This document shows, piece after piece, positions 30,165 to 37,703 of a stretch of DNA of 64,000 nucleotides. Position 1 is the first letter of the stretch, and every line of letters starts with the position of its first letter. The notes under the pieces were generated by a model. It saw only the letters and a list, made by a program, of their open reading frames with translations, searched no databases and had not been told where the DNA came from. The stretch comes from Pirellulales bacterium. GTDB taxonomy: Bacteria; Planctomycetota; Planctomycetia; Pirellulales; JAICIG01. The stretch lies in the NCBI GenBank assembly GCA_035533075.1, contig DATLUO010000281.1:1-64000 (forward strand). Reading direction: 5' to 3'. The position numbers were made by a program, and so were the translations under genes.

Positions 30165-30263
30165 CGGCGCGAAACTTTTCCACTTCCGCGGGGTTGGATG
30201 GGGCGGGCTTCTCGGACATGATTGGCTTTTACCAGCCCGCTGGCTGAGCACGGGAGACGGAAC

Positions 30264-30557
30264 ATGCTTCGACGCACATGGGCTGTGGCGGTGATGGCCG
30301 CGGGGCTGACACAGGCTCGGATGGCGAACGCCGCCGAGCCGGGACCGGGACCGGTGCCGCCCTGGGCGCAGGCGCGCGATCCCGACGAGGTGCTGGTGTT
30401 CAAGTGGCCCCAGGGCGATCTCAAATTGCACATCTACCGTCCGCAGGACTGGAAAGCCGAAGATCGTCGGCCCGCGATCGTCTTTTGGTTCGGCGGCAAG
30501 GCACAGGATGCCGGAGTTCGCTGCGAGCTATGGACCGCCGAGGAGGGATGTTACTGA
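30264..30557 (+). pseudogene. 5' fragment of a secreted alpha/beta-hydrolase (esterase) gene
   Basis: It starts with a ribosome binding site (GGGAGA) and ATG at 30264, then a signal peptide (TWAVAVMAAGLTQARMANAA). The next 65 residues, LKLHIYRPQDWKAEDRRPAI followed by VFWFGG, match the first strands and oxyanion region of acetyl-esterase-like hydrolases. The frame ends after WTAEEGCY, before any nucleophile GxSxG, so about three quarters of the gene is gone. It collides with another truncated gene on the opposite strand at about 30545. Confidence 0.75.
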
Positions 30558-31104
30558 ATCCCGAGCCAATAAGGCGCAAATCGATTGAGCCCTGATGCAC
30601 GTAAACGACCGGCGGATCAATCGCCGTCAACGCGAGCGGATCGGACGGCTCGCGGAGCACCGTGAAATCGTAGTTGTGCCCGGGCACGGGCGCCGGCAGC
30701 GGCCCCGTCTTCGCGTCGTCAACAGTGATGCAGACTCGCGCCGTCTGACGTCCCAGCGGCGCGTCTTTGGGCAGGTTGAACATGATATAGCTGCGGTCTC
30801 CGGCAACCGCGGTCGGCGCAAACGCGGCCGAGTTGCCCACCGTAATCTTGAAGTCAGCGGCCGAGGCGGGGAAGTTCGTGCGGAAGATGCAGACCTGCGC
30901 GCCGCGCAGGGCCTCGGCCGGCTCCAACTTTGCCACGGTCGGAATCGTCTCCGCCGCGGGAGGCGATGTCTCTTGCGCCGTCAGCGCGACAACAAACGGC
31001 GGGCCAAAAAACAGCAGCCAGCCAAAGACGATGCCGCACCGCCGAGGGTTGAATCGGCAGCCACGGTCTGCGGGCGTCAAGCGTATCGATGTCGCGCGAA
31101 ACAT
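30421..31104 (-). pseudogene. IPT/TIG-domain protein gene, 3'-truncated
   Basis: The first 185 residues look real: an N-terminal hydrophobic segment (FGWLLFFGPPFVVALTAQ), a first IPT/TIG-like domain (AKLEPAEALRGAQVCIF, YIMFNLPKDAPLGRQTARVC) and the beginning of a second one (LTAIDPPVVYVHQGSIDL, LIGSGFSNIPP). From about 30545 onward the frame runs antisense through the esterase fragment and has no sensible composition (RRTKRRSRADDLRLS). The gene therefore lost its 3' part in the same event that cut the esterase gene. Confidence 0.65.
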
Positions 31105-31190: not shown

Positions 31191-34100
31191 TTAGCCGGCG
31201 GCGGATCCGCCAGCACCCGCACCGGCACCGGCCGGCGCGCCGGCCGGGCCGTTGAGCAAGGCCATATTTAGAACGTGAAGCAGGTTTTGTCCATTGGGGG
31301 TGCCCCAACCCGATGCCGCGTCGTAGCCGGGACCGGCGCTGTAACCGCCGACCTGCGAGGTGTTATTGTCGCCCGACTCGACGTCAGTGCAGCCGAGAGC
31401 GCCGACGGCCTGTGCGCCAAGCTTCTGATACAGGACCGGCGTTACATAACCGAGCCGCTTGCCAGGGCCGCGCTGGCCGTTGATGCGGGTGATGAGTGCC
31501 GCCACAAGGGGCGAGGCGGCGCTCGTCCCGCCGTTGGGCTGCGCGTGGCCGTCGACGACCAGCAAGTAGGGCGAAGCCGTCCAGTCAGCATTGGCCGATA
31601 AATCGGGGATGCAGCGGCCGAGGATTGCGCCTGGATTGACCGAAATGATGTTATCCAACCCCGCCTGCCAAGCCGGTCGCGGAAAGACAGCGCTGACGCC
31701 CCCGCCCGTGCTCCCGCCGTTATCGTTTCGCAAGCCATCTCCTTCTTTCCAGGCCACGTCGGGTGCCGATCCGTCATCGGCCAGGACCGTCGTGCCACCC
31801 ACCGATAGTACATACGGGCTCGATCCCGGAAAATCGACGTGGGCATGTCCGTCCAGGTCGGCGTCGCTCGATCCGTCATCACCGGCGGCGAGGCAAACCG
31901 TGATCCCCAAGTGAGCCGCTTCCAAGAAACTTTCATTCACCTGCGTCATCGCCTGCTCAGTCCAGATGTCGGTGTCTTCCGGCGCGCCCCAACTGATCGA
32001 CAGTACCCCAGGGTCGTTATGGCTATCCTGGATTGCGGCATCGAGGGCTGTGATCCATCCGATTTCCGTCCACTGGGCAAAATAGACGGCGATGTTCGCC
32101 TCGGGGCACACGCCGGCCACTACCTCGATATCGAGCATCACTTCGCCTTCGGCGCCATCCTTTGCCGACGTGGACGTTCCGTCTGTGCTAATGGCGGTCA
32201 CCGTCGGGGGTGAGATGCCCGCCAGACTGCAGAACTTCTTCAGGTCGTCGGGAAAGTACCCGCCGCCGAATTCCAACAGTCCGACCGTTTGTCCGCTGCC
32301 GTCGCCCGAGGGATAGTTGTAGTGAGCGGCGAGCTGTAGTCCGTCGAGATGCGTTCTCAGCGAGGTGTTGTTAGAATTCTCGGCCAGGCCCGGAACCGCG
32401 CATTGCAGAGATTGCCAGATCCGCAACGACGCCTCCAACTCGAAACGTCTCGGCAGGCGCGATAAGAGCAACCAGGCCAGCGCTTTGCGAGTCTTCCGCG
32501 GCAGCCGCTGGAAGGCGTCGGCCATCGGGTGCCGCGCCAGCCTTCGCAAGAGCTCTAAAAACACGTAGCTGCCCCAGAGAAATTGCCAGATGGTGAGCCA
32601 GAACAGGCCGACGACCGCGAGCCACGTTAGCCACACAACGGTGTTGAACTGCGCCGATTCGTAGGCCGCCAGGGAGTGTGCCCAAGCGACGACCAGGAAT
32701 AAGAAGGGGAAGATGATCAAAGTATGCCACGCCAAGACCCGCGACACGGAGGCAAAACCATGCCCGAGCACCGCTCGCCACGTGAAATCCTCGGCGTCGT
32801 TGCGGGACGGCCAGCCTCGGCCGCTTTCCAGGCAACCCACCAAGGGGCGGATAATCTGTGTCAAGCCGGCATAGTTGAGATCGCGAGGCTGTTGCGGCGC
32901 GCGCTCAAACGGATTCAACAATGGAAAGCGATCCGCAAAACTGCGACGCTGCAGATGGCCCCGGAACCACCAGGCGATCGCGATCGCCACAAAAAAGCAG
33001 GGAAGCGTGGGCGTCACGCGGTCGCCGAAGCGCGCCGATCGCTCCAAAAAAATCGCGGCGTCGGAAAGCGGCTTCGATGGATTGGAGACCAGATACAGCA
33101 CGACCGCCTCAACGGCCGCCGCCGCGATGAACGACCACGATACGGTACGCATGACCACTGCGGGCACTCGGGCACAGTCTTGGCGGATTCGTGGCCGCCG
33201 CATGGCGAGGACGGTGCCAACGGCAACGGCTGCGAAAACCGCGCCCAGCGCGGCGTGCTCGGTTGCCAATACAGCCAAGATCACGGCCTGACGCCTCCAG
33301 TTATCAGTCCCGAAGCAGAATGACACTCTACCGCGGAGCCAAAGCGAAAGATGAACGAGCGTGGGCGAAGCAAGAGCAATCTCGGCCGCCAACAACGAGA
33401 GAAAATAGGGCACCGGCCACCAGTAGTGCCGAAACGCGTCGTCGCCGCCAGCCGTCGCTACGATGTGGCCGGCCAGATAGCGCAGGGAGCTTACCACGCA
33501 AAAGCCGCTGAATCCCGTCGCGATGAGGCCCAGCATGCCGCGCAAGCCATCTTCAATATCTGGGTCGCCGTAGGTCGCAGACGAATCGCGATAGGAGTGA
33601 TGCGGCTTTTTCTCGCTCACAGCTCGTAGAACGTAGTGTCGGTCGTTTTCGCTGGCGTCTTGCGCGTTCCCTGGCGTGTCCCGGATAGTTTTGTCGTCGC
33701 CGTTCTTGGGCAGTTGCTGCTGTTCCAATGGTTGCCATTTCTCTCGCGGAACGACGGCGATGGGCCAAAATTCGCCGTTGCTGACGGCAGTCAACCATAC
33801 TGGCGGCGCGACGTGATATCCGTCGCCGATGTCCTCGAATGGCGTGCGGTATTCGAGTGGCTCAAACGCAACTCGACTCGCCGGGCCGTTTGCCGCCCGA
33901 GGCTGGTCGTCGGAGCAGCGCGACGACTCGCTGCCGCCGGGTACAGGCAAGTCGCTTTGCGCCAAAAGCGCCAACGTGGCATTGTAAACGCCCTCAGAGG
34001 CTACGTTGGTGAAGGAGATTCTGCGCGATGCGCTGCGCGGATCGAGCGCAGTCCACTTCTGATTCTTGCTGATGAGAGGATAGGTCGTTGCGATTAGCGA

Positions 34101-35675
34101 ACCTTCCAAGGCAGGCCCGACGTCGGGATGAGTAAAAATGGAATCCGCTCGAAACAGCACGAGTTGAACTTCGGGACAGTAGAACCGCACCTGCTCGGCC
34201 AGGAATAGCTGGTCGCGAACATCGGTGGCGATCAGACCAATGCAGCGAATCCCTCTGCGGGTCATCGACAGGAGAATGTGCGCGATGGATCGCTCCACGG
34301 AGGAAATCGTGGTTGGCGAAAAGGATGGCACGTGTTGCGGCGTCCCCCTTGTGTCTCCGAGTGAAAGATCGAGGTTCGATTTGGGTGCATTATCGACGTC
34401 GCGCCGCTTGCCGGTGAGCAGCCGCGAGTCTTTGTCGTACGCGCTTCGCATGGAGCTGATGTGCATCGGAAAAGGCACCTGAAGTACGTCGCCTTGGGGC
34501 GACGTTAAGGTTTGACTCGCCTTTTTCCCGGCGCCCTGCCGGGGCTTCGCTACCGGCAACAATAACTGTTCGCCAAAACTCGTGTCCGCCTCCGTGAGGA
34601 ACGCAACCTGATGCGGTTCGATGCCGTGTTGCCACAAATGGTCCAGCAGCACTTCGCGGATGACCGAATCGGGAATAACCGTGGCATGAAACGTTACGCT
34701 GAGGCCGGGCCGATTGGCCGACAGTTCGCGGAATTCGAGGACCGATTTATTGGATATCGCGGATGCAGAGCCAGATACACACGAAATTGCGACGGGCGCT
34801 TCGGCGCTATCTCCTCCAGACCATTCCTTGAACCACTCGCCGATCGCCAGGCGAATCGACGAGGCAGCCCCAGAAAAGAACGGCGCCACGAGATGAAGCC
34901 GCAAGCTCGTCTTCGACAGTGGATCCGGCGGCGCGGACGGTTCGGGCCCAGCGGAGACCGGCGCTCGTGGAGTTGCCTGCCAAAAAGACAAAAAGTCGAG
35001 CGATCTTCTGAGTGCAACCTTATCGACGCCTGTGGTCGGGGTTTCACCAACGACGAAGACCGCTAAGACGTCGCTCGCATTTCCGGAGCAGCGAAAAAGA
35101 ATCAGCCCGGGCGCATGGTCGGCTGTCTTGGTTAAGACGCCGGGGCTCACCCCAGGTCCATCGCGTGCGGGTGCCCACGGTAGCCAGTAGCGATCGAATA
35201 CGTAACCTCGACGTTCGGCAGCACGCTGGAGTCCGTCGAGGGTGATGTCGCTAAAATAACCCAAGTTGGAATCAATCGGGTCGGGCACCGATAGGATCAA
35301 GAATCGAACGCGAATTCCGTGCTCGTCGGCTGCCGCACGAAGCGAACCGACTTCCGCAAGCGTCGGCGGACTGGGGCTAGGCGGGCTGATGCCAGCCGCG
35401 CGGCTCACCGCCGCCGCTAACGCATCGAAGAAGCCAGGAGAGCTGGGGTTGAATTCGGCGCTGTAAAACTCCTCGATCAAACGTTCCGGATCTTTGCCGC
35501 GAATCGATGCTAGGGCAGTGTGGGCGTCGATGCCCCCGGTGGTTTGCTCCCGCACGGGGGCGGCGCCGCAACCGTTTGCGGTAGTAAGCGGACGAGTATC
35601 CGGTCCAAGGCGCATAGCAAAGGCAGCAACCAGTCCTAACAGAAATGCTTGACCGATGGTTCGATTCATAGACAA
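31191..35675 (-). CDS. fusion of periplasmic-binding-like region, seven membrane helices and S53 (sedolisin) peptidase
   Basis: A 1494-residue protein. Residues 1-25 are a signal peptide or anchor. Residues about 30-660 are extracytoplasmic; parts such as RGIRCIGLIATDVRDQLFLA and VQLVLFRADSIFTHPDVGPA resemble type I periplasmic-binding folds. About seven membrane helices follow (roughly 700-1060). From about 1115 to 1460 there is a complete sedolisin domain. It begins QLAAHYNYPSGDGSGQTVGL, with Glu1178 and Asp1182 (EGEVMLDIEV), Asp1266 (AAGDDGSSD), Ser1385 (GGTSAASP), and a Ca-site region DVESGDN...GWGTPNG. All catalytic residues have family spacing. Sedolisins are normally secreted with a pro-domain, which is absent here. 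By helix count the peptidase would face the cytoplasm. A glycine/alanine tail ends the protein. Confidence 0.85.
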   Translation of the reverse strand: MSMNRTIGQAFLLGLVAAFAMRLGPDTRPLTTANGCGAAPVREQTTGGIDAHTALASIRGKDPERLIEEFYSAEFNPSSPGFFDALAAAVSRAAGISPPSPSPPTLAEVGSLRAAADEHGIRVRFLILSVPDPIDSNLGYFSDITLDGLQRAAERRGYVFDRYWLPWAPARDGPGVSPGVLTKTADHAPGLILFRCSGNASDVLAVFVVGETPTTGVDKVALRRSLDFLSFWQATPRAPVSAGPEPSAPPDPLSKTSLRLHLVAPFFSGAASSIRLAIGEWFKEWSGGDSAEAPVAISCVSGSASAISNKSVLEFRELSANRPGLSVTFHATVIPDSVIREVLLDHLWQHGIEPHQVAFLTEADTSFGEQLLLPVAKPRQGAGKKASQTLTSPQGDVLQVPFPMHISSMRSAYDKDSRLLTGKRRDVDNAPKSNLDLSLGDTRGTPQHVPSFSPTTISSVERSIAHILLSMTRRGIRCIGLIATDVRDQLFLAEQVRFYCPEVQLVLFRADSIFTHPDVGPALEGSLIATTYPLISKNQKWTALDPRSASRRISFTNVASEGVYNATLALLAQSDLPVPGGSESSRCSDDQPRAANGPASRVAFEPLEYRTPFEDIGDGYHVAPPVWLTAVSNGEFWPIAVVPREKWQPLEQQQLPKNGDDKTIRDTPGNAQDASENDRHYVLRAVSEKKPHHSYRDSSATYGDPDIEDGLRGMLGLIATGFSGFCVVSSLRYLAGHIVATAGGDDAFRHYWWPVPYFLSLLAAEIALASPTLVHLSLWLRGRVSFCFGTDNWRRQAVILAVLATEHAALGAVFAAVAVGTVLAMRRPRIRQDCARVPAVVMRTVSWSFIAAAAVEAVVLYLVSNPSKPLSDAAIFLERSARFGDRVTPTLPCFFVAIAIAWWFRGHLQRRSFADRFPLLNPFERAPQQPRDLNYAGLTQIIRPLVGCLESGRGWPSRNDAEDFTWRAVLGHGFASVSRVLAWHTLIIFPFLFLVVAWAHSLAAYESAQFNTVVWLTWLAVVGLFWLTIWQFLWGSYVFLELLRRLARHPMADAFQRLPRKTRKALAWLLLSRLPRRFELEASLRIWQSLQCAVPGLAENSNNTSLRTHLDGLQLAAHYNYPSGDGSGQTVGLLEFGGGYFPDDLKKFCSLAGISPPTVTAISTDGTSTSAKDGAEGEVMLDIEVVAGVCPEANIAVYFAQWTEIGWITALDAAIQDSHNDPGVLSISWGAPEDTDIWTEQAMTQVNESFLEAAHLGITVCLAAGDDGSSDADLDGHAHVDFPGSSPYVLSVGGTTVLADDGSAPDVAWKEGDGLRNDNGGSTGGGVSAVFPRPAWQAGLDNIISVNPGAILGRCIPDLSANADWTASPYLLVVDGHAQPNGGTSAASPLVAALITRINGQRGPGKRLGYVTPVLYQKLGAQAVGALGCTDVESGDNNTSQVGGYSAGPGYDAASGWGTPNGQNLLHVLNMALLNGPAGAPAGAGAGAGGSAAG

Positions 35676-35772
35676 AAACCGGTGGGTTCGCCGACACGGC
35701 TAGAACTCGATACGCGACGATCCCTCCTGGACGGTTGACAGTGCAGACGGCGGTAATTTGGCAGAGGTGGAC

Positions 35773-35805
35773 TCGACGTTCAATCGACTTTCTCTCGATC
35801 TTCTC
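35773..35805 (-). promoter_or_regulatory. 11-bp iteron array A (3 units)
   Basis: On the plus strand: TCGACGTTCAA, TCGACTTTCTC, TCGATCTTCTC, exactly 11 bp apart. It lies about 100-130 bp upstream of the sedolisin-fusion start. Direct repeats at 11-bp spacing are the usual layout of OmpR/PhoB-family operators, so a regulator of that kind is the best guess. The 20 bp beside it are also similar to array B. Confidence 0.6.
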
Positions 35806-35850
35806 GCGAAGTCGCGGGTTTATTCCATTAGTCGGGCCCTGCCTCAGGGG

Positions 35851-36532
35851 CTAAATCTGGCCTGGAAATCGAGCCTGAAGGGCTTGCACAAAATGTCCGG
35901 CGAGTTGCTTGAAGCCGTCGGGATAAGGATGTAACTCGTTCGCCCAGTCGCCGGGCTTAAGCGTGCCTTGTGTGTTGACGAGAATGAAGTTGTTGGCGGC
36001 GTTGCCCGCCAAGCCGAGAAGCATCGTGTTGAAGGTGGCTAGTGCTTGCCGAACAATCGACGTGCCTTGCGCGAGGTTCCAGCCACAATAGTCGAGCGAC
36101 GGTTTGAGCCAAGGGCCGGCACAAGCCGGGTGCGAGCCGTTGGGAATCGCAAAGTCGTAGCTGTGAGCGAAGGGCCTGAATGATCCGCTCCTGCTTCGGC
36201 AGCGACATTTCTTCGGTGGTGGCGTCGCCAACGTGCGAGACGTGGAGGATCACCGGGCTTGTGTTGCCCATCAGCGCGAGCTGGGCGACGATGTCGGTGC
36301 TGTGGACCGAGACGTCGTTGCCGGCCAGGGGGTAGTCGAATCACGAGTCGCCGTGGGCCAGCATGACCAACGGCTCGGCGGGCACGGGCGCGCCGGCCAG
36401 CGCTGCCGCGGCGATCACTTGCGTGCTCGATTTCAGACGTGCGATGGTCCGCTGATGCGCGGCCGTCCGCTCGGCGATTTCATCGTCGATCGCGTCTCGC
36501 AACTGCTGCCGTAGTGCAATGCTTTCACGCAT
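35851..36532 (-). pseudogene. SGNH (GDSL-type) hydrolase gene with nonsense codon and frameshift
   Basis: It opens with MRESIALRQQLRDAIDDEIA and reaches LVMLAHGDS, then a TGA at 36341-36343. The same frame goes on as FDYPLAGNDVSVHSTDIV, VILHVSHVGDATTEEM. The family block I motif is GDSWFDYPL, so TGG (Trp) has become TGA. A second lesion at about 36165-36180 shifts the frame; the next frame gives AHSYDFAIPNGSHPACAG and the C-terminal block V, ELHPYPDGFKQLAGHF. Two independent lesions argue for real decay and not sequencing error. The enzyme would have been an esterase or lipase. Confidence 0.82.
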
Positions 36533-36595: not shown

Positions 36596-36639
36596 TCGAT
36601 CTTCAATCGACGTTCTCTCGATCTTCACTCGATTTTCTA
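36596..36639 (-). promoter_or_regulatory. 11-bp iteron array B (4 units)
   Basis: On the plus strand: TCGATCTTCAA, TCGACGTTCTC, TCGATCTTCAC, TCGATTTTCTA, each 11 bp. It lies about 65-105 bp upstream of the SGNH pseudogene and 18 bp past the end of the papain-like fragment. The order of unit types matches arrays A and C. Confidence 0.6.
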
Positions 36640-36656: not shown

Positions 36657-37196
36657 CTAAAACGCCATCATTTCCCAGAGATACTTGTCGATGTACGTCG
36701 CGGAAATTTGGCCGTAGCCGATTTCGGGGGAGAAATAGCCGGGAGAAGGCGCCTGGGTGGCCCAAACGCTGCCCCAACTGTTGCGGAGGATGAACCAGCC
36801 GCCCACGGGTTCGGATGGGTCGGGTTCAAACCGAGTCACGCAAATTGCATGGCCGCCCGCCACCACCGACGTCGGTAGAGGGTCGATCACTCGGCCGTAG
36901 AGTGCGCCGATCGCCGTATTCCAGTTCGTGGCCAATGGGTTCAGCGCGTCGCGGAAAACGGGTACGGAAATGGCGACCGGGCGCTGCCCGCTCTGCAGAG
37001 CGCTCAGCACGGCGGCAGCACCGCCCGACGACTGATACAGCCCCGGGGTGAGAAGCCGACCGCCCGCGTCGGCCTGCGCAGCCGCGGAAGGATCGGCCGC
37101 GGACTGTTGGCCTATATTGCCCGGAATTGGAGTGCCGTTGTAATTCCAAAGCGCTTCGGGGCAGATACCGACGGTCGCCAAAGCGGCGCGTGCATA
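36657..37196 (-). pseudogene. papain-like (C1) peptidase gene, 5'-truncated
   Basis: About 179 residues are readable after a TAA at 37197-37199. The sequence ALATVGICPEALWNYNGTP, then SVVAGGHAICVTRFEPDP with the catalytic His and GGWFILRNSWGSVW with the catalytic Asn, are clear C1 family features. The part with the catalytic Cys (normally QGxCGSCWA) should lie about 40-60 residues upstream of the first readable residue. It is absent, and the space is occupied by a gene on the other strand. The fragment cannot be active alone. Confidence 0.75.
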
Positions 37197-37670: not shown

Positions 37671-37703
37671 TCGATCTTCAATCGACGTTTTATCGATCTT
37701 CTT
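37671..37703 (-). promoter_or_regulatory. 11-bp iteron array C (3 units)
   Basis: On the plus strand: TCGATCTTCAA, TCGACGTTTTA, TCGATCTTCTT, 11 bp each. Unit 1 is identical to unit 1 of array B. It overlaps the end of a doubtful minus-strand ORF and may have been the upstream site of the now truncated papain-like gene. Confidence 0.55.

Follow-up and report, generated by a model that had tools for sequence, protein, structure and literature searches.

A Pirellulales open reading frame joining a Venus-flytrap membrane protein to a kumamolisin-like S53 peptidase, a candidate receptor protease

What would a sedolisin-type peptidase do when it is built into a membrane protein with a receptor-like layout, and what would hold it in check? 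This question is raised by a single open frame at 31191–35675 on the reverse strand of the window, which is the whole stretch of 64,000 nucleotides analysed here, from a Pirellulales genome. The frame runs for 1494 codons with no internal stop; the product has 1494 aa from a TTG and 1492 aa from the ATG at 35669, which is codon 3 and the likelier start (Table 1).

Table 1. Parts of the receptor-peptidase frame, with positions in the window
Feature	Position	Strand	Basis or detail
Receptor-peptidase fusion, whole ORF	31191..35675	-	1494 codons; ATG 35667-35669
N-terminal hydrophobic segment, ~residues 9-23: export signal or anchor	35607..35651	-	Hydropathy; model helix 10-20
Outer Venus-flytrap domain, residues ~112-650, predicted type I periplasmic-binding fold	33726..35342	-	AlphaFold model, Foldseek, homologues
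Seven predicted membrane helices, residues 710-1048	32532..33548	-	Hydropathy, AlphaFold model, loop charge
Predicted cytoplasmic stretch past helix 7, residues 1049-1090, K+R rich, motif PxxxAFxRLP at 1050-1059	32406..32531	-	Family alignment
Junction between family homology and peptidase, residues 1091-1111	32343..32405	-	Homology ends; third-position GC even
S53 peptidase unit, residues 1112-1470; E1178, D1182, D1266, S1385; predicted calcium site 1431, 1432, 1448, 1450, 1452	31266..32342	-	
C-terminal tail, end Ala/Gly-rich	31194..31265	-	

The protein was compared with PDB chains using phmmer. The results showed that residues 1112–1469 matched kumamolisin-As (1sio, E = 1.8e-80), and that the peptidase region also matched TPP1 (E about 1e-21). 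The sole Pfam match in the protein was to the related S8 profile (residues 1181–1398, E = 2.7e-12). The initial annotation had named a complete S53 catalytic domain with Glu1178, Asp1182, Asp1266 and Ser1385, and alignment placed all four correctly, as the catalytic Glu, Asp and Ser and the oxyanion Asp that mark MEROPS family S53. E1135 and W1229 were likewise kept, as were the residues of a predicted calcium site (D1431, V1432, G1448, G1450 and D1452). A model of residues 640–1494 had a low mean pLDDT (54.7), and its peptidase portion matched kumamolisin (E = 5e-26). Judged by alignment, residues 1112–1470 are an intact kumamolisin-like S53 peptidase. The unit shares with kumamolisin and kumamolisin-As the catalytic residues, the oxyanion Asp and the calcium-site residues, but it differs from them in having no pro-domain, in being joined to a receptor-like membrane protein and in being predicted to be cytoplasmic.

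The outer region was modelled with AlphaFold from 38 aligned family sequences, and the model reached a pLDDT of ~85–95 over most of residues 120–575. Foldseek returned LivK (3td9) as the best match (E = 2.5e-5; TM-score 0.61 by target length) and also paired the region with the outer domains of GABA-B and mGlu receptors. No Pfam family matched residues 1–1090, and no periplasmic-binding profile of Pfam had a match in the fusion protein or in 22 relatives. According to the model, residues ~115–650 fold as a two-lobed, LivK-like Venus-flytrap domain of the type I periplasmic-binding class that is not filed in any Pfam family; the periplasmic-binding-like outer region noted earlier is thus matched by solved type I structures.

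A whole-genome search revealed homologues of the outer and membrane parts in 32 of 398 class genomes, host included (~8%), with carriers such as Zavarzinella formosa (L137) and Gemmataceae and Isosphaeraceae MAGs. The family proteins (loci L032–L062, L065–L077 and L127–L137) are mostly 1000–1630 aa long, with a layout that resembles class C GPCRs. The fusion protein has the family's homologous outer domain and seven-helix part, and by this homology residues ~115–1100 place it in a planctomycete membrane family, new here, that is uncharacterised and has no matching Pfam domain. Shared with the family are the export segment, the outer domain, the seven helices and the motif after helix 7. The other members shown in the family alignment continue past helix 7 into a soluble stretch or loop and then three more helices, whereas the fusion protein lacks this C-terminal part and carries the S53 domain in its place; none of the family members inspected bears an S53 domain. 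Clustering of 345 neighbouring frames of family members, with Pfam scans, found no conserved partner genes beyond common kinase genes, so the operons give no function. PDB sequence matches to the family profile were weak, mutually inconsistent membrane-protein matches and were rejected. A match on a Methylosinus plasmid was set aside as well: it was to a distant relative, spanned a short N-terminal fragment and shed no light on function.

Which side of the membrane the peptidase faces depends on the helices that follow the outer domain. The AlphaFold model placed long helices at residues 710–741, 754–786, 792–825, 840–863, 890–916, 975–1000 and 1008–1048, and hydropathy likewise gave seven, in agreement with the approximate count first proposed. 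We computed the loop charge bias over 22 family members. The K+R fraction was 0.150 in loop A-B, 0.083 in B-C, 0.137 in C-D, 0.094 in D-E, 0.152 in E-F, 0.038 in F-G and 0.178 after helix G. By this regular alternation, helix 7 would end inside the cell and the S53 domain would follow it there, so that the peptidase is probably cytoplasmic, as had been suggested from the helix count. The call is independent of whether the N-terminal segment is cleaved, because the outer domain lies outside either way. In an improbable alternative, with the topology reversed or one predicted helix uninserted, the S53 domain would sit on the outer side of the inner membrane, and the family part would anchor and export what is otherwise an ordinary acid protease. 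This alternative is favoured by the exported or lysosomal location of characterised S53 proteins. The modest confidence of the model in the membrane region (pLDDT about 45–80) and the length of helices B and C, which could be counted differently, point the same way. However, the charge alternates consistently over diverse family rows, and both methods give seven helices.

Family homology ends at about residue 1090–1110, with residues 1049–1090, in which the PxxxAFxRLP motif is retained, as the last clearly shared part, and the S53 domain begins at residue 1112, where homology to mature kumamolisin starts. Third-position GC was 0.74 in the membrane part and 0.73 in the S53 part, and codon use was continuous across the junction. 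Domain borders on both sides, together with this level GC, speak for a real gene fusion, in which the native tail of the family was swapped for S53 at a clean boundary, over a random assembly join. An assembly error that joined two separate genes is very improbable: the genome is a draft of 296 contigs and the join is present in one assembly only, but the two parts share strand and frame, their compositions run on continuously, and neither an orphaned C-terminus of the family nor a pro-domain was found elsewhere in the genome.

The combination was then sought in related genomes. S53 matches were present in 44 of 398 class genomes; the receptor family was absent from all 20 S53 loci fetched from class genomes, and S53 was absent from all 33 family loci checked. 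A full-length search of 397 order genomes found both parts separately and no second fusion. This domain-architecture search covered about 800 class and order genomes in total, in overlapping and non-exhaustive samples, and returned no other protein with the same layout; literature searches in an incomplete library found no description of such an architecture. The initial annotation had taken the whole architecture to be undescribed, and this stands for the full layout within the searched genomes, but the outer and membrane parts are those of a planctomycete family and not a one-off. The fusion is an unusual and new combination, observed a single time, of parts that are each known or recognisable. 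Long S53 proteins of other genomes (L107–L114) were considered as further cytoplasmic fusions and rejected; those scanned carry PF09286, and none matches the receptor family.

The absence of a pro-domain had also been pointed out for this protein. A Pfam scan (E ≤ 0.5) found no Pro-kuma_activ domain in the fusion protein, and PF09286 had zero matches across the whole host genome. The absence therefore holds for both protein and genome, but it is not distinctive, since ten other planctomycete S53 proteins that were scanned also had no PF09286 match; core-only fungal paralogs have been mentioned as well (PMC6278154). The fusion carries an S53 peptidase domain, yet on these sequence comparisons it is not a typical pro-kumamolisin. 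The ten include a planctomycete pro-domain-less clade (L069, L072, L096–L098 and L100), which resembles the fusion in keeping its catalytic residues and in giving no match to PF09286; its members, however, are stand-alone proteins of 425–594 aa with no membrane part and form a separate, supported group in the S53 tree. One of them (L072) comes from the same taxonomic family as the host, and L069 and L072 have no obvious signal peptide as judged by eye. The fusion domain falls outside this group at an unresolved base, and proteins with a pro-domain are among the rows nearest to it by path length, so its pro-domain loss may be separate from that of the group. Three other proteins (L118, L124 and L126) have an S53 domain near the N-terminus, give no pro-domain match and extend beyond the peptidase in long tails that contain Ig-like or dockerin-type domains.

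Two genes upstream on the same strand are broken. The hydrolase-like gene at 35851–36526 (-) has an internal TGA in its HGDS...FDYP region and a frameshift, and the C1-type peptidase piece at 36657–37196 (-) lacks the N-terminal half, the frames of its relatives being 358–427 aa long. The fusion may stem from a rearranged patch of the genome, which makes a functionless product a serious rival: two genes would have been brought together in frame by a recent local rearrangement, giving a protein that is unselected or decaying. The lack of another fusion copy in the searched genomes fits this alternative too. We nevertheless consider it quite unlikely, since the frame runs through 1494 codons with no stop, every catalytic and calcium-site residue is kept, and the junction falls exactly at domain borders. 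The S53 branch of the fusion is long (1.06 changes per site in the tree); that frame and catalytic residues are intact despite this suggests selection for activity, though the branch may partly predate the fusion. Two further features of this region were observed. Within 30222–31104, a 227-aa frame (-) ends where it runs into a short esterase-like N-terminal frame (+), and the arrangement near 30550 resembles the junction of a rearrangement. A direct repeat of 11 bases (TCGATCTTCAA-like) forms three blocks (35762–35814, 36596–36637 and 37671–37701) and was found nowhere else in the 8.5 Mb genome with a 20-base probe; the blocks may represent sites for a regulator or remnants of a duplication.

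The best-supported mechanism, which we put forward tentatively, is that the sensor and membrane half of the Venus-flytrap family, joined to a mature, pro-domain-less kumamolisin-like S53 unit, acts as a ligand-gated cytoplasmic protease. Outside the inner membrane, the outer domain would bind a small ligand, and the seven helices would relay the ligand-induced change inward. The peptidase at the cytoplasmic face would thereby be positioned or switched on and would cut cytoplasmic or membrane proteins. It would have to be active at cytoplasmic pH and calcium, and the receptor half would take over the control that a pro-domain exerts. Several results count against this ligand-gated reading. The pH of the bacterial cytoplasm is near neutral. 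Characterised sedolisins are acid-active, have a calcium site and are usually made with a pro-segment that assists folding (PMC6278154). No second fusion copy was found in the genomes searched, and the broken flanking genes weaken the case for a working system. The native C-terminus of the family is no recognised enzyme in the members seen, which leaves the receptor half as a usual signaller unsupported. The low confidence of the membrane model and the 4 K+R in the protein's own B-C loop, which is predicted to be outside, weigh on the same side.

Because known sedolisins work best in acid, a latent role triggered by damage is a real alternative, though an unlikely one. The peptidase would then be a cytoplasmic sedolisin kept inactive by neutral pH and low calcium, acting on membrane breach or acidification as an effector of damage response or self-destruction, with the outer domain serving for placement or as a second input. 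The kept calcium-site residues, the cytoplasmic side indicated by charge bias, and the acid activity and calcium site of sedolisins (PMC6278154) are consistent with this. Against it, no adjoining defence or death genes were recognised among the families scanned. If the ligand-gated reading holds and the enzyme is active, it would be a cytoplasmic sedolisin under the control of a membrane receptor domain, a new kind of receptor protease. The locus also offers a way to test what lets S53 enzymes fold, and what keeps them in check, when no pro-segment is present.

The layout was further compared with that of class C GPCRs (GABA-B and mGlu). The fusion has the same arrangement, with a Venus-flytrap domain outside, seven helices and a C-terminus predicted to be inside, and the outer domains match by Foldseek. 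The output differs, being a peptidase, and the membrane part has no demonstrated similarity: whole-chain alignments gave an rmsd of 31–42 Å, and no GPCR family of Pfam matched the fusion protein or the 22 relatives. Kinship of the membrane part with GPCRs is therefore unsupported. That the fusion is a one-protein bacterial receptor of class-C-GPCR-like layout, whose output is a cytoplasmic sedolisin-type peptidase in place of a G protein or kinase and which is controlled by an outside ligand instead of a pro-domain, is possible but doubtful; if true and active, it would be a bacterial protein with a Venus-flytrap, seven-helix and cytoplasmic-effector layout. The locus also draws attention to a planctomycete membrane family, itself uncharacterised, that has the receptor-like layout minus the peptidase. 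In two genomes (L059 and L148), this family is apparently split into adjacent genes for the outer domain and the membrane part, and distant relatives elsewhere in the phylum (L140–L147) have mainly one lobe of the outer domain and several membrane helices in common with it.
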